Origin: Methanoculleus marisnigri JR1
Lineage (GTDB): Archaea > Halobacteriota > Methanomicrobia > Methanomicrobiales > Methanoculleaceae
DNA: 64,000 nt
Direction of reading: 5' to 3'
NCBI RefSeq assembly: GCF_000015825.1
Contig: NC_009051.1
Span: forward strand, 2,288,695-2,352,694
The notes beneath the pieces were generated by a model. That model saw only the letters and a program-made list of their open reading frames with translations, was not told the origin of the DNA and did no database searches. This document shows, in pieces, positions 1,377-62,262 of the stretch (the first letter of the stretch is position 1; each line of letters begins with the position of its first letter). Made by a program: the position numbers and the translations under genes.

Positions 1377-2551
1377 GATCGCTTCTCTCCCGCGTTGCCG
1401 GGGAGGTCAGGGGGCTCGCCGTCGTCGACGGGGAGACCGCGTACATCCGCGACCCGGTCTTCCCGGTCATCCGGAACCGCGTGCATGCCGAGGTCGCGAA
1501 GACGCTGCTCCGGTTAGACGGCGACCCGCTCGTGGGCCCGATCCTGAACTACGCCGCAGGATGCCAGAACCCGGACGGGTCATGGAACGAGGTTCACGTC
1601 AACTACAACGAGCCTTCGGCCCTGATCACGGCGTTTATCGGCGACGCGCTCCTGGAGGCAGCGGAGCGGTATCCGCACGAGGAGGCACTCCAAAAAGCCG
1701 GGGACTTCGTCCTCGCCGCCGAAAGAAACCGCGGGTGCTTCCTGAAGTCCCGGGGGTACACCGCCGACCACCTGAACGTCGACGCCTCCTGCGGGGCGTT
1801 CCTCGCCCGGTATGCGGAACGCTACGGCGACGAGGACGCCCGTGCGGCGGCGCTTCGGGCGGCGGAGAACGTCGTCAGCCACCAGTGTAAATGCGGCGTC
1901 TACCCCTACGCGGTCGATAAGGGGACCTATCCTTTCGTCTTCAAACTCCCCTGCGTGCACTACCAGGGGGTGACGATCTACTACCTCGCCAAGGCAAACG
2001 ACGTCCTGTGCGACGAGCGGATCGACGAAAGCATCGCTAAAGGGGTGCGGTGGCTCGCGGACGCCCAGCGTCCCGACGGGCGGTTCGACTGGTCGCGGAG
2101 CGGGCTATCCTTCGCCTACTACCTTTCCGGTGCATACGCGTTCGCCCTGGCCTCCTTCGTCTATGCGTCGCGGGCGGACGAGCGTTACCGGGAACACGCC
2201 AACCTCTGCCTTGGCCGGCTTGAGAAGGACGTGCAGGGGCTTGCACCCCGGTGGGAACCGGGCTCGTGGCTTGGTCTCGTCCCGTCCGTCGCCACGGCGG
2301 CGAAGACGGCGTCGCTCGGGCACTACCCATTGCGGCACCGGGCGTTCCGGTTCGGCTACGGCATGTACCGCGAGATCGCCCGCAGGCGGTACGGCGAAAC
2401 CGCAGAGACGCGATCCTTCGAAGCCCTCTGCCGGGTGCTCGGAATCCGGTCGTCGACCGTGGAACCGTCGAATAACTTCCCCGATCTCTTCATGACCTCG
2501 GAGGTGCTCGACTGTCTCAGCCAGTCGGGAATCTGGGGGGAATCTACGTGA
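1343..2551 (+). CDS. Alpha/alpha-toroid (prenyltransferase/squalene-oxidase repeat-like) protein
   Basis: About 402 residues from the ATG at 1343 (an alternative ATG lies at 1361). No signal peptide or membrane segment. Repeated helical units of the type CQNPDGSWNEV and DAQRPDGRFDW, with QxxDGxW-like signatures, point to an alpha/alpha barrel like terpene-cyclase repeats or some glycan-active lyases and hydrolases. It overlaps the glycosyltransferase end by 34 bases, and its stop overlaps the GTG start of the next gene (GTGA), so translation is probably coupled. In bacteria similar two-domain oxidoreductases often sit beside heparinase-like toroid proteins, so a role in uronate-rich polysaccharide is an inference. 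Exact function unknown. Confidence 0.75.
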   Translation: MYREDDMDGRVRSLLSRVAGEVRGLAVVDGETAYIRDPVFPVIRNRVHAEVAKTLLRLDGDPLVGPILNYAAGCQNPDGSWNEVHVNYNEPSALITAFIGDALLEAAERYPHEEALQKAGDFVLAAERNRGCFLKSRGYTADHLNVDASCGAFLARYAERYGDEDARAAALRAAENVVSHQCKCGVYPYAVDKGTYPFVFKLPCVHYQGVTIYYLAKANDVLCDERIDESIAKGVRWLADAQRPDGRFDWSRSGLSFAYYLSGAYAFALASFVYASRADERYREHANLCLGRLEKDVQGLAPRWEPGSWLGLVPSVATAAKTASLGHYPLRHRAFRFGYGMYREIARRRYGETAETRSFEALCRVLGIRSSTVEPSNNFPDLFMTSEVLDCLSQSGIWGEST

Positions 2552-4695
2552 AACAGGTATTGCTCAATCTGCAGTCAGGGTCCATCCAGGTGGAGAACGT
2601 TCCCGTTCCCGCCGTAACGAGGGGGGTCGTCGTCGAGAACGCCTACTCCCTCATCAGCGCCGGCACGGAGTCGTCGCTGATCAACCTCGCACAGCAGTCG
2701 CTCGTCGGCAAGGCGAAGGCACGCCCCGACGACGTGAAGAAAGTCCTCCAGAAGGTCGGAACGGACGGCCCTCTCTCGGCCTACCAGCAGGCGATGAGCC
2801 GTCTCTCCAAACCCGAACCGCTCGGCTACAGTTCTGCGGGCACGGTGGTGACAACGGCATCCGACGAGTTCGAGGTCGGCGACCGCGTCGCCTGTGCCGG
2901 AGCAGGGTACGCGGTGCATGCCGAGTATGTTGCGGTCCCGAAGAACCTCTGCGTCAGGATCCCCGACGGTGTCGGCTTTAAGGAAGCGGCGTTCACGACC
3001 GTCGGGTCGATCGCGATGCACGGCGTCCGGAACGCCGAAGTCTCGGTGGGCGAGAACGTCGCGGTGATCGGGCTCGGGCTGATCGGGCTTCTCTCGGTGC
3101 AGATCCTCAAAGCCGCGGGATGCCGGGTGATCGGGATCGATATCGACCCCGAAAAACTTGCGCTTGCGGCTGAGCTCGGTGCGGACGTCGTCTCGAACTA
3201 CGACGGCCTCTTCGAGAGGGCGCGGGCGTTATCGTCGTTCGGGGCGGACGCAGTCATCATCACCGCGGCCACCAGATCGAGCGCCCCAATCGAGGCCGCC
3301 GGCCGCCTGGTCAGGGATAAAGGCAGGGTCGTGGTCGTCGGGAACGTCGGCATGGACGTGCCCCGGGATGTCTTCTACGAGAAGGAGGCGGAAGTCGTCG
3401 TCTCCCGCTCCTACGGCCCCGGCCGCTACGACAGGAACTACGAGGAGCGGGGGATCGACTACCCGATCTACGTCAGGTGGACGGAGAAGAGGAACATGGA
3501 GGCGTTTCTCGAACTGGTGCGGCAGAAGAAGATCGATCTCGACCGCCTGATCACCCATACCTTTCCGCTCGACGACGCGCCGGGGGCCTACGACCTCATC
3601 AACACAGGAAAGGAACGGTTCATCGGGGTTCTCCTGCAGTACAGCCCGAACGGTTCGGGCGCCTCCGGCACCGTCGTCAGCCTCGCAAAGCCCGGCGCAC
3701 GGAAGCGCAAGGTTCCGGCCGCGGCCCGGACGCTCGGGTGTATCGGCGCCGGGGTCCATGCCCAGAGCGCCCTCTATCCCCTCCTGCCGAACCTCCCGGT
3801 GAACCTCGGGGGGCTTGCGACCGCGACGGGACTCTCGGCGCAGACGGTCGCAAAGAAGTACGGCTTTTCCTACTGCACCACCGACTACCATAAGATCCTC
3901 GACGATCCCGATATCGACGCGGTGATGATCGCGACGAGAAACGATCTCCACGCGCCGATGGCGATCGACGCGCTCTATGCCGGAAAAGACGTCTTCGTGG
4001 AGAAGCCGCTCGCGACCGATATCGAGAGTCTCCGCCGGATCGTCGAGGCCAGAAACGAGTCCGGCCAGCGGCTGATGGTCGGGTTCAACCGCCGCCACTC
4101 CCCGCTTGCGGTGAGGATGAAGGGGTTCTTCGCAAACCGGGCAACCCCCGCCGTCCTGCACTACCGGGTCAACGCCGGGCAGATCCCGCCCGAACACTGG
4201 GTGCACGACGACGAGCAGGGCGGCGGGATGCTGATCTCGGAGTGCTGCCACTTCATCGACTTCATGCAGTACGTCACCGGGGCGCGGCCGGTCCAGGTCG
4301 TTGCCCGGGCAATCGAGCCGACCGGGACGCTCCAGAAGTACGACAACTTCCAGGCGACCCTGACGTTCGACGACGGGTCGCTCGGCACCGTCACCTACAC
4401 GACGCTCGGGGATCGCTCCTACCCCAAAGAGACCGTCGAGGTCTTCGCCGGCAACGCCGTCGGGAGGATCACCGACTTCCGCGACCTCGAACTCCGGCGG
4501 GAGGGGAAGGCATCGAGGGAGAAGCGGTGGCTCGCCCAGGAGAAGGGGTTTGCCGAGGAACTCCTGGCGTTCGTGAAGGGCGAGGAACCGGACTTCGCCG
4601 GCAACGTCGCGACGACGCTCGCAACGTTCGCGGCATGGGAGTCGATCGATACCGGGGCGGCGCAGGAGATCGATACCGGGCGGGTGGGGTTGTGA
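2548..4695 (+). CDS. Two-domain oxidoreductase (MDR alcohol dehydrogenase + Gfo/Idh/MocA)
   Basis: 715 residues, GTG start behind GGGGGGAATCTAC. Residues 1 to about 355 form a medium-chain dehydrogenase (GYSSAGTVV, GDRVACAGAGYAVHAEY, Rossmann turn GLGLIGLLSVQ). Residues about 385-715 form a Gfo/Idh/MocA oxidoreductase (GCIGAGVHAQSALYPLL, then VFVEKPLATD with the conserved EKP, then GGGMLISECCHFIDFMQYV carrying the catalytic-type histidine). Such fusions are recurrent in polysaccharide clusters and are thought to oxidise or epimerise sugars using NAD(P). The preceding two genes support surface glycan synthesis. The substrate is not predictable. The hairpin array begins about 65 bases after its stop. 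Confidence 0.9.
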   Translation: MKQVLLNLQSGSIQVENVPVPAVTRGVVVENAYSLISAGTESSLINLAQQSLVGKAKARPDDVKKVLQKVGTDGPLSAYQQAMSRLSKPEPLGYSSAGTVVTTASDEFEVGDRVACAGAGYAVHAEYVAVPKNLCVRIPDGVGFKEAAFTTVGSIAMHGVRNAEVSVGENVAVIGLGLIGLLSVQILKAAGCRVIGIDIDPEKLALAAELGADVVSNYDGLFERARALSSFGADAVIITAATRSSAPIEAAGRLVRDKGRVVVVGNVGMDVPRDVFYEKEAEVVVSRSYGPGRYDRNYEERGIDYPIYVRWTEKRNMEAFLELVRQKKIDLDRLITHTFPLDDAPGAYDLINTGKERFIGVLLQYSPNGSGASGTVVSLAKPGARKRKVPAAARTLGCIGAGVHAQSALYPLLPNLPVNLGGLATATGLSAQTVAKKYGFSYCTTDYHKILDDPDIDAVMIATRNDLHAPMAIDALYAGKDVFVEKPLATDIESLRRIVEARNESGQRLMVGFNRRHSPLAVRMKGFFANRATPAVLHYRVNAGQIPPEHWVHDDEQGGGMLISECCHFIDFMQYVTGARPVQVVARAIEPTGTLQKYDNFQATLTFDDGSLGTVTYTTLGDRSYPKETVEVFAGNAVGRITDFRDLELRREGKASREKRWLAQEKGFAEELLAFVKGEEPDFAGNVATTLATFAAWESIDTGAAQEIDTGRVGL

Positions 4696-4759
4696 TGTGG
4701 TTTAAGCGTTGAGAGCAGGTTTTTTGCCCCGCCACAGCGAGGGCAGTGCGTGGTGACAT

Positions 4760-5830
4760 CACCATCGCGGGGGGCGGCTCACGGGGAGTGCGAGCGTAGC
4801 GAACACGAGAAGAACGAAGTTCTTCGAGGGGGCATGCCCCTTCCCCTGTCTCTACCCTGCTACAATAATGCCTACAACCCCCCACCCCGCCCGCGCTTCG
4901 CGCTCCTCAGACGCACCTGCGGTGCTCAAACTCCCGCCGTTCGCTACGCTCCGGCAGAGTCGTTCCCCGCCCGTGGGGGGCGGGGGCAGTCATAGCGATA
5001 AGCGATGGTTCGGAGAACCGGAGCTAGAGCACCGACGGTGCGAAGCCGGGGGAAAGCCGTGTCCCGGAAGCGAGCCGGAACCCCGTTCTTCTCCAGAGCC
5101 TCCCCATGCAGTGGACCGTGGGGACTACGCACCTTCGGTGCTCGTGCTCCTGCCCTTCGGCCAGTCGCATATCGCCATGGGGGTGGCGGCCCGCGGGGAG
5201 TGCGATGGTTCGTAGAACCGGAGCTCGACCACCGTCAGGTGGGAAGTGCGAGCGAAGCGAGCTTGAGCACCGGAGGTGCGAAGGGGGTGAACCCCCTCCC
5301 CTGTCTCTACCAGATTCGAGGACACCACGAACCTCCACCCCGCCCGGCCTCCGGCCTCCTCACTCGCACCTGCGGTGCTCAAACTCCTGCTGTTCCAGCA
5401 GTCGTTTTCCCCGCCCCGGCAACGGCCGGTGGAAAGCCGGGACGCCGTTCTTCTCCAGAGTCTCCCCCCATACCCGCGGGTGGTGAAATCCAGACGCAAT
5501 GCCCCACTAACGGATTCTCATGCTCCGTTCCTGCGAAACATCGCAAGTCGCACCTAAAGGTGCTCCCGCTCCGCTCCTCGCACCTAACGGTGCTCACGTT
5601 CGCTTTCGCTCACGCCTCGAAGACCTTCGGTCTTCTCGAACTCCTGTCCGAAACCCTTCGGGTTTCTCAAGCTCCGGAATCGAAGCCTGACGGCTTCTCA
5701 TGTTCCGTTCGCACTTATCAGTGCTCAAGCTCCTGCCCTTACGGGCAGTCGCATTCCGTTGGAACGTCGCACCCTGCGGGCCATCGCATCCTGCGGACAG
5801 TCGTTCTCCGGAGCGTCGAGCAAAAAAACA
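4760..5830. repeat. Hairpin-mosaic array 1
   Basis: No credible gene lies between 4696 and 5874. Instead there are at least fourteen short hairpins with 2-4 base loops. Examples: 4809-4825 (GAAGAAC-GAA-GTTCTTC), 4913-4925, 5029-5041, 5129-5141, 5267-5279, 5366-5378 (all GCACC...GGTGC), 5387-5401 (CTGCTG-TTC-CAGCAG), 5550-5563, 5580-5593, 5619-5635, 5650-5666 (GAAACCC-TTC-GGGTTTC), 5682-5697, 5711-5724 and 5733-5748. GCACC-type hairpins are usually preceded by TCG and followed by CTC. This flank gives an orientation, which flips at about 5029 and 5267. Stems differ in sequence but are compensated, so structure rather than sequence is conserved. Related arrays lie at 37600 and 45780. Confidence 0.85.
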
Positions 5831-5874: not shown

Positions 5875-6852
5875 TTACGAAGAAGAAGGCTGGGTACTTT
5901 GGATATACGCCAGCTGCTCGCGGATCCGCTCCGGGATCGTGCGGGGATCTTCTGCCGTAACGGCCTCCTTCCATTCCTCCCGGCACGAGCCGTCCAGTCC
6001 GTCGAACTCTGTCGTGTCGAAACGGGAGTTGTATCGCTGGATCGCCTCCGTGATCTCGGCATCGCACTTCCCGCAGTTCCGGGCCCAGTCGAGCGACTCG
6101 ACCGAGTAGTTCCAGGGGCTGACGTAGACGTGAGCACGGTTCCCGAACCGCTCCCGGCACTGCTGCAGGAGTTCGACGAGCGTCCAGAGCCACGGCGGGC
6201 GGTAAAGGTCGTTCTTCCAGAGTTCGTGCACGACCGTGTTCTTCTCGACCGTCGTCACCTCGAGGTCGACGTAGTCGATCCCGCGGGAGATGCAGTAGGA
6301 GATGGTCCGCAGGATATCGTCTATCGCTTCTCCTTCGGTGAGAAACGGCGGTTTTACCAGGAGGAGCGGTTTTGTCAGCACGCCCATCCCCCGCATCCTC
6401 GAATGGAAGAGATCGAAGTTGTTCGCCGAGAACCCCTTGTTGATGCAGAGGTTCATCACCTGGGCGTTTGCAGACTCGAACCCGAACGCCACCTCGAGCT
6501 GCCGCCCGTTCAAGGCCTTCTTCATCTTTGCCACGTGCTCGTCGGGGGAATAATCGATCCTCGACTCGACGACCACCTTCCGGATGTTTTTGTAGCCGTC
6601 GATGTACGAACAGATCTTCTCGATGGCGGCAACCGGCATCTCGCGTTCGTTAAAGATATTGCCGTCGTTGTATATCGAGACGATCGGGTAATCCCCGAGA
6701 TCGACGGCATCCATCACGTGCTCGAACTGCGCGATGTATTCGTCCGCCGATACCTCCCGGCCCCGGGACGTTGCACAGTAAAAACCGCACATGGTGCACC
6801 CTCCCGTCTTCTCGACCCATTCGCACCCCGTGGAACGGAGGAAGATGATCAA
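5875..6852 (-). CDS. Radical SAM protein, RaSEA-like (archaeosine synthesis)
   Basis: 325 residues from the only conventional in-frame start, a TTG at 6852. The cluster motif is CEWVEKTGGCTMCGFY (CX7CX2C spacing, as in RaSEA/Elp3-type radical SAM proteins), followed by SIYNDGNIFNEREM and VAFGFESANAQVM. RaSEA works with ArcS on tRNA position 15 to convert a lysine-modified preQ0 base to archaeosine. The frame stays open upstream to 7089 and encodes a convincing N-terminus (RALAGGLRKRNG, TVPIGWEERIGHLDD) that RaSEA proteins should have, but without ATG, GTG or TTG. The true 5' end is therefore unresolved. No arcS partner is visible nearby. Family is firm, RaSEA subgroup likely. Confidence 0.8.
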   Translation of the reverse strand: MIIFLRSTGCEWVEKTGGCTMCGFYCATSRGREVSADEYIAQFEHVMDAVDLGDYPIVSIYNDGNIFNEREMPVAAIEKICSYIDGYKNIRKVVVESRIDYSPDEHVAKMKKALNGRQLEVAFGFESANAQVMNLCINKGFSANNFDLFHSRMRGMGVLTKPLLLVKPPFLTEGEAIDDILRTISYCISRGIDYVDLEVTTVEKNTVVHELWKNDLYRPPWLWTLVELLQQCRERFGNRAHVYVSPWNYSVESLDWARNCGKCDAEITEAIQRYNSRFDTTEFDGLDGSCREEWKEAVTAEDPRTIPERIREQLAYIQSTQPSSS

Positions 6853-37599: not shown

Positions 37600-37880
37600 C
37601 TGGCCCTGCGGCCAGTCGCACTACGCTCCTCCCACCAGATGGTGCTCAAACTCCGGCCGCTCGTAGTCGCACCTCTGGTGCTCTTGCTCCGCTCCTGCGG
37701 AGCATCGCACTCCACCCCCGCCCGTCGTTCGTCGCCACTCGCGCCTTACGGTGCTTCGGCTCCTGCTCGAAGACGCTTCCGCGTCTTCTCAAGCTCCTGC
37801 CGTTCCGGCAGTCGCACCCTTCGGCCAGTCGACCACTCGCACCTGCGGTGCTCGGGCTCCGCTCCTCACGGAGCGTCGCC
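37600..37880 (+). repeat. Hairpin-mosaic array 2
   Basis: Same design as the array at 4760. Hairpins: GCTCC-TGC-GGAGC at 37691-37703, GAAGACGC-TTCC-GCGTCTTC at 37769-37788, CTGCCG-TTC-CGGCAG at 37797-37811, GCACC-TGC-GGTGC at 37839-37851, and GCTCC-TCAC-GGAGC at 37861-37874. The TCGC before and GCTC after GCACC-type hairpins are kept. All oriented forward. It replaces the 3' part of a lipoprotein gene and stops just before the lysS promoter. Confidence 0.8.
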
Positions 37881-61960: not shown

Positions 61961-62103
61961 CCCAGGAGCTATCCCCTACGACAACCTCGCGCGAAGTTCG
62001 GTGGATGGTTACTGGTGACCCCCACTACACGATACACCAGAGAGGGGAGCAACCTGACTGAGGGAAAAACCCGGTACACTGGACCGTGGGAGATATCGCG
62101 CCT

Positions 62104-62132
62104 GGGGGTGGTGGGGCTGGCGGGGAGGGGGG
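62104..62132 (+). other. G-quadruplex motif
   Basis: Four G runs of 4-6 (62104-62108, 62113-62116, 62122-62125, 62127-62132) separated by loops of 1-5 bases, the usual G4 pattern, on the plus strand beyond the Trm5 stop. Confidence 0.55.
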
Positions 62133-62262
62133 AGCATCCCCCATCGCAGTCTCACCCCCCCACAATGTGATGCTCGGTGAGCAGTGGGAGATATGCCCAG
62201 CCAAAAAAGAAGAAGCATATTTGATTACTGAAAATGCAAGAGCTGCAATCCAAGGGATCCCC

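Follow-up and report, generated by a model that had tools for sequence, protein, structure and literature searches.

Positions 4760-5830 of the window (the whole analysed stretch of 64,000 nucleotides, G000:C1:2288695-2352694, in a genome of 2,478,101 bases that is denoted G000 below) raise the question of what kind of element holds many short hairpins with different stems in a common frame. The preliminary description of this interval left open an RNA, a mobile hairpin family or a product of hairpin-templated copying. The interval contains 22 perfect non-overlapping hairpins (stem of at least 5, loop of 3-5), far above the chance level given by dinucleotide shuffles (n = 100; mean 3.62, maximum 10) and by the remaining 1071-nt tiles of the window, with about 5 perfect hairpins each; 8 perfect hairpins with stems of at least 5, in addition to weaker ones, lie within 5550-5748 alone. 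A codon-usage ORF call with a model trained on the window bears out the absence of a coding-like ORF in 4760-5830, and the neighboring genes are called at 2548-4695 (+) and 5875-6852 (-), so that the array occupies the gap of two convergent genes.

The hairpins obey a common grammar, as originally proposed: when the C strand is read, the stems are flanked by TC..TC, and when the G strand is read, by GA..GA, with the linker TCNNRYTC separating two alternating hairpin types. The orientation flips noticed near 5029 and 5267 are confirmed, and their number exceeds two, since every element switches strand at each junction of its outer and inner arms. The array is not CRISPR, given that the stems vary and the spacers are short linkers in common, nor is it a simple repeat, and an Rfam search yields no family match (best score 21.1 bits against a gathering threshold of 35).

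The window array is made up of a composite intergenic repeat, several copies of which are arranged head to tail. A BLAST search with the array identifies 149 pieces in G000 (E < 0.001); a search scoring fewer candidates per genome finds 7 to 42 matches in each of 21 of the 24 congeners, and two or none in the other three. Other families of the order contain no array matches except one weak one. The 17-mer GAGCACCGNAGGTGCGA occurs 74 times in G000 and is present in 8 of the 9 sampled genomes of the genus, compared to a single occurrence across the 238 remaining genomes in the phylum sample. Likewise, G000 contains 27 exact matches to the T1 end joined to the inner repeat, TGGACCGTGGNRNTATCGC, which is present in 20 of 25 genus genomes and in none of 16 genomes from other families of the order. 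The copy counts for G000 are derived from searches and extracted stretches. Thus, the array is a scattered non-coding repeat of one genus of methane-making archaea, apparently Methanoculleus, and is essentially absent outside this genus. The idea of a mobile hairpin family came close to this result, and the genus-wide BLAST matches, together with the shuffle mean given above, clearly contradict the possibility that the hairpins are confined to the window and reproduced equally well by shuffled sequence. In the passages searched, publications that deal with REP tools, with inverted repeats on a genome-wide scale and with a M. bourgensis genome contain no description of the Methanoculleus repeat, and literature searches with sequence words found none.

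Two further stretches of the window are related. A second, intergenic array with the same grammar is located at 37600-37880 in the C orientation and includes the hairpins GCACC.tct.GGTGC, GAAGACGC.ttcc.GCGTCTTC, CTGCCG.ttc.CGGCAG, GCACC.tgc.GGTGC and CGCTCC.tcac.GGAGCG. At 62060-62160, a truncated core, GGGGAGGGGGGAgcaTCCCCC, comes after another T1 end, TGGACCGTGG, which is located at 62080.

In full copies, one end, T1 (CCCGGTACAGTGGACCGTGGGGAT) or T2 (CCCRTGCACGGATTTCCACCGGAT), is followed by ATCGCCA, the left core (GGGGTGGGGCTGACGGGGAGGGGG-loop-CCCCCTCCCCTGTCTCTACC), a variable spacer (richer in A/T, about 25 nt), the right core (CCCCCACCCCGCCCGGCCttcGGCCTCCTC and CCCCGCCCC-loop-GGGGCGGGG), GCAGTGCGTGGCGAT and the other end, so that inner ATCGCCA inverted repeats flank a G/C-rich hairpin core. 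In most full copies, T1 and T2 occur once each; the two have in common only CCCRTGCA and ATATCGCCA-like parts; T1 frequently reads outward into TTTTTCC. Minimal copies span 134-192 nt from inner repeat to inner repeat. The core is found in either orientation between T1 and T2, even at orthologous loci. At the L031 locus, the core of the G000 copy is opposite to that in L157 (G012), L159 (G011) and L160 (G005). At L037:1230-1820 and its orthologs L126-L131, the element is nested inside a larger inverted-repeat stretch; this stretch ends near CGTCCAGGGATTTTTAG and CTAAAAATCCCTGGACGG and may be a further MITE-like family. In L114 (G006), a separate stretch with an HNH-like coding frame, recognized by eye, lies at about 1230-1680 between the left gene and the element. 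The features of the window locus are listed in the table.

Table. Parts of the repeat in the window locus, 4743-5820 (window positions)
Feature	Position	Strand	Comparison
Right inner end relic GCAGTGCGTGGTGAC, adjoins first element	4743..4757	+	Agrees with GCAGTGCGTGGCGATA, the right-end consensus from full copies
Element copy 1: inner left repeat ATCACCATCG, slot-3 cassette, core, slot-4 cassette, inner right repeat, outer cassette, T2	4758..5061	+	Order as in full copies L028, L033, L040
G-strand cassette GTGCGA-GC.gta.GC-GA..GA-GAAGAAC.gaa.GTTCTTC-GA, left core slot	4788..4827	+	No cassette here in orthologous elements of G015, G011
Left core hairpin AGGGGG.cat.GCCCCT and conserved word CCCCTGTCTCTACC	4827..4856	+	Found in full copies
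Right core word ACCCCGCCC with small hairpin GCGC.ttc.GCGC	4884..4908	+	GGCC.ttc.GGCC in other copies
C-strand cassette GCACC.tgc.GGTGC, then CCGCC..GGCAG arm	4909..4964	+	Missing in orthologous element of G015
Right core hairpin CCCCGCCC.gtggg.GGGCGGGG	4965..4985	+	Kept in full copies
Outer G-strand cassette GGTTC.gga.GAACC and GCACC.gac.GGTGC, inner repeat-to-T2 slot	5001..5043	+	Empty slot in other copies, GGCGATAGCCGG
T2 end, inward reading CACGGCTTTCCCCCGGCT	5044..5061	-	31 T2-like sequences collected, mostly real ends
Linker joining tandem elements	5062..5104	+	Similar linker in tandem elements of G015, G011, L048
T1 end CATGCAGTGGACCGTGGGGACT	5105..5126	+	41 T1-like sequences collected
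Outer C-strand cassette GCACC.ttc.GGTGC and CTGCCCttcGGCCAG, T1-to-ATCGCCA slot	5127..5170	+	Empty slot in other copies
Inner repeat ATCGCCATGG, element copy 2	5171..5199	+	Consensus of inner repeats
Slot-3 cassettes GGTTC.gta.GAACC, CCACC.gtca.GGTGG, GC.gaa.GC, GCACC.gga.GGTGC	5200..5281	+	35 slot-3 cassettes collected, 4 A-stem families
Left core hairpin AGGGGG.tgaa.CCCCCT and CCCCTGTCTCTACC	5282..5311	+	
Right core with GGCC.tcc.GGCC; cassette GCACC.tgc.GGTGC, CTGCTG.ttc.CAGCAG	5337..5406	+	
Long C-strand hairpin array	5545..5820	+	G000 only among orthologs compared

The variable parts of the repeat are cassettes, usually of two hairpins and about 45 nt, which occupy fixed GA/TC slots (T1-ATCGCCA, T2-ATCGCCA, after GGGGAG and after CTCCTC). 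Their stems come from a small set, in which GCACC alone accounts for 173 of 303: type B stems are mostly GCACC, GAAGACC, GAAACCC, GAAACTC, GAAGCC, GAAGAAC or CCACC, and type A stems are GGTTC, CGTTCC, CTGCCG, CTGCTG, CGGACG and the like. About 52 of the copies collected have an empty left core slot, and in 59 it is occupied. At the window locus, G015 and G011 possess minimal elements without cassettes, G003 has one element with cassettes, and G004 has three identical 46-nt units; the array at 5545-5820 is missing from G004, G011 and G015, in which the orthologous stretches continue to the A-tract. At the L031 locus, where the left flanks are 95-97% identical among orthologs, there is no cassette in G003, different slot-3 cassettes in G004 and G006, and cassettes in two other slots in G000. 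The L028 element has no cassette in G011, one in G003 and three in tandem in G000, and the L037 element contains a 46-nt cassette in G000 that is missing in G015. Such orthologous copies, with near-identical flanks and none, one or several cassettes, indicate that cassettes are gained and lost whole.

Tandem units that are 100% identical (49 nt x 6.8, 55 nt x 3.2 and 46 nt x 3.2) point to recent expansion. The perfect 49-nt tandem of 6.8 units (L026:1142-1472, the same as array L110:518-848) lies between T1 and ATCGCCA. In addition, positions 5616-5789 resemble G000:153197-153372, with a similar hairpin order and 82% identity, suggesting that arrays are copied as blocks between loci. Thus, cassettes are gained, lost, tandemly multiplied and exchanged between copies as whole modules.

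How the stems vary was analyzed with a pairing-blind test in which only the flanks and the loop ends define a slot. Of 247 five-base arm pairs, 175 are perfect matches, compared to 108 expected when the arms are re-dealt. Around GCACC/GGTGC, there are only two compensated pair types, CCACC/GGTGG (29 cases, largely in one slot) and GCACT/AGTGC (2 cases), and 26 cases of one-sided stem mutations that belong to 14 types. The A stems of slot-3 cassettes, which are otherwise homologous, comprise four unrelated five-base sequences. Compensatory evolution of each stem as the main process was rejected because the one-sided types outnumber the compensated ones. Given the rarity of compensation and the unrelated A stems of slot 3, the stem variation is attributed to exchange of whole hairpins from a small set, together with ordinary decay by point mutation. 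The earlier emphasis on compensated stems holds in that each hairpin type is self-complementary, but not as proof of selection on individual stems.

The loops follow common rules on the G strand. Among the GA-framed hairpins, 199 of 243 three-base loops are GNA and 75 of 94 four-base loops are GNNA, with a C-G closing pair in 193 of 243 and 89 of 94, respectively. The third base of the GNNA loops is a pyrimidine in 65 of 75, which breaks the GNRA rule of RNA (10 of 75 are GNRA-compatible). In DNA mini-hairpins, d(cGNNAg) tetraloops are stable. Outside GA..GA, a pyrimidine on the 5' side and a purine on the 3' side are present in 251 of 282 units, and these bases pair in 173, compared to 130 predicted from the margins, which allows stacking of the GA steps, in the form of tandem G.A pairs, within a longer hairpin; a k-turn reading of the GA..GA flanks was discarded because no matching C-stem was apparent by eye. 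The smallest unit, GA-GCGNAGC-GA (GAGCGNAGCGA), occurs 43 times, compared to 1-5 for scrambled controls. Outside the repeats, 119 bacterial loci, minus the searched motif, show no excess of GA-framed hairpins over other frames, and no loop rule for such hairpins is detectable in those loci or in the rest of the window.

With both the DNA and the RNA tables of ViennaRNA, triloop energies are sequence-blind and provide no ranking, and tetraloops mildly favor the G strand in both. In the literature, GNA triloops closed by C-G form a stable DNA family (PMC5815330) and DNA mini-hairpins of two to three pairs are extraordinarily stable (PMC10527192). The loop and closing-pair rules of such mini-hairpins, d(GCGAAGC) and d(GNA) (PMC10527192, PMC5815330) as well as the d(cGNNAg) tetraloops, match those of the G strand; these are laboratory folds and scattered motifs, whereas in Methanoculleus they are building blocks of a genomic repeat family. 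The argument from stability draws on this outside work, and the hairpins probably matter as single-stranded DNA rather than as RNA.

Among 33 element-bearing gaps, 19 are convergent, 10 tandem and 4 divergent, compared to 8, 37 and 8, respectively, among all 53 gaps of the window (19/33 versus 8/53 convergent, p = 8e-5; against gaps of at least 150 bp the bias is weaker, p = 0.014); in this tally, the tandem gap L094 is counted separately and the window locus is counted as convergent. This bias agrees with promoter avoidance, as for REP repeats, and by itself shows no function.

The array is best read as a new mosaic repeat of BIME/MITE-like type for which no transposase is known. At a probability of about 0.58, the observations reflect a genus-specific interspersed repeat whose cassettes are exchanged whole and whose hairpins act as single-stranded DNA, with slippage or template switching between units. 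On the G strand, the unit Y-GA-stem-GNA/GNNA-stem'-GA-R, closed by C-G, would be a mini-hairpin that combines a GN(N)A loop with a tandem G.A step. Folds of this kind could arise in lagging-strand DNA or in DNA exposed by repair or transcription, where they would block the polymerase and cause slippage and template switching among the many similar units. These events might lead to tandem multiplication and movement between copies and maintain the small set of self-complementary stems, with recombination between copies acting in addition; the repeats are found mostly downstream of genes, where they would do the least harm, as in the case of REP/BIME. A mechanism of slippage and template switching fits the identity of tandem units, the replacement of whole cassettes at GA/TC microhomology and the inversion of the core; it is read from the outcomes in orthologs, and microhomology blurs the insertion boundary so that slippage, gene conversion and true insertion are not distinguishable.

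An origin from a REP-RAYT system or from IS200/IS605 was rejected because the Y1 transposase (PF01797) is missing in G000 and in most element-rich congeners, with matches in 3 of 16 genus genomes. A broader alternative is that the whole element, with T1 and T2 as its ends, is MITE-like and is moved by a transposase that acts in trans or is now lost, the cassettes being decoration. The defined ends, one of each in most full copies, agree with this view, as do the small size (a minimal core of 134 nt), the many dispersed copies and the lack of coding capacity. However, the inverted repetition between T1 and T2 is only partial, inspection of full copies by eye reveals no target-site duplication, none of the copies seen contains a coding insert, and there is no clean empty site, given that element-free orthologous gene pairs are devoid of most of the intergenic stretch. 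With the one transposase family searched, Y1, absent from G000 as well, this scenario appears unlikely.

The hairpins could also belong to a structured RNA, namely a 3'-UTR processing, stability or termination element where convergent genes meet. The minus strand of 5548-5815 folds strongly as RNA (z = -7.2), at least as extremely as it does as DNA (z = -5.3), the elements are biased to convergent gene ends, T1 often reads outward into a T-run, and many C-strand tetraloops fit UNAC. Such a role is decidedly unlikely, given that both strands are used symmetrically within each element, arrays appear and disappear among orthologs, point changes are uncompensated, few of the GNNA loops are GNRA-compatible, and Rfam provides no match. 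Quasipalindrome correction, in which template switching inside a hairpin rewrites one arm from the other, would create new perfect stems in place, and perfect stems of several sequences indeed occupy homologous slots, with GCACT/AGTGC and CCACC/GGTGG each one compensated pair away from GCACC/GGTGC. Frequent correction would, however, yield many one-step neighbors; the stem types are few and one-sided variant types are commoner than corrected ones, which makes this process very improbable as the source of the stems.

Compared to known systems, the preferred mosaic repeat of Methanoculleus resembles the REP/BIME of enterobacteria and pseudomonads, which are associated with the RAYT Y1 transposase (e.g., PMC2817692), in being made of short extragenic palindromes with many copies, joined in alternating orientations as mosaics and biased to gene 3' ends. 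Unlike REP/BIME, which carry a GTAG/GGAG-type head at the hairpin base, it has GA flanks at either side of the hairpin (read as TC from the opposite strand), several interchangeable stems, a larger T1/core/T2 frame and no Y1 transposase in G000. With the MITEs of bacteria and archaea it shares non-coding, dispersed copies and defined ends, which appear to be inverted in part of their sequence; it differs from them in its two unlike ends, the variable hairpin cassettes inside and the lack of a known partner transposase, and no target duplication is apparent by eye.

A bacterial repeat, GTCATTCT-GAGCGNAGCGA-AGAATC, has the same inner grammar, GA-GC-GNA-GC-GA, with all four N and stems of more than one sequence, but, unlike the Methanoculleus repeat, it is a single hairpin with an A/T-richer outer stem. 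In a scan chosen for this word, GAGCGNAGCGA within the stems ATTCT/AGAAT, ATCCT/AGGAT or ACCCT/AGGGT is found in many bacterial phyla among the matches listed. The repeat, with variable N and alternative outer stems, is represented by L174-L253 and further loci; the matches listed include Nitrospirae, Acidobacteria, Bacteroidota and Chloroflexi, as well as Lachnospiraceae, Verrucomicrobia, Planctomycetes, Helicobacter and others. The literature searched contains no name or description for it. That the GA-framed unit Y-GA-stem-GN(N)A-stem'-GA-R is a self-propagating single-stranded DNA unit, whose stability would lead to template-switch copying without a transposase and would underlie both the Methanoculleus arrays and the bacterial repeats, is a speculative and rather unlikely extension.

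REP-like intergenic palindromes are usually explained by a Y1 transposase, and the Methanoculleus family is abundant without one. It combines change of whole cassettes between close species with a loop rule suggestive of single-stranded DNA in a folded state. The repeat is a natural system for following hairpin-driven copying by strain comparison, and a link to the similar repeat of many bacterial phyla, which apparently has no name, can be tested.
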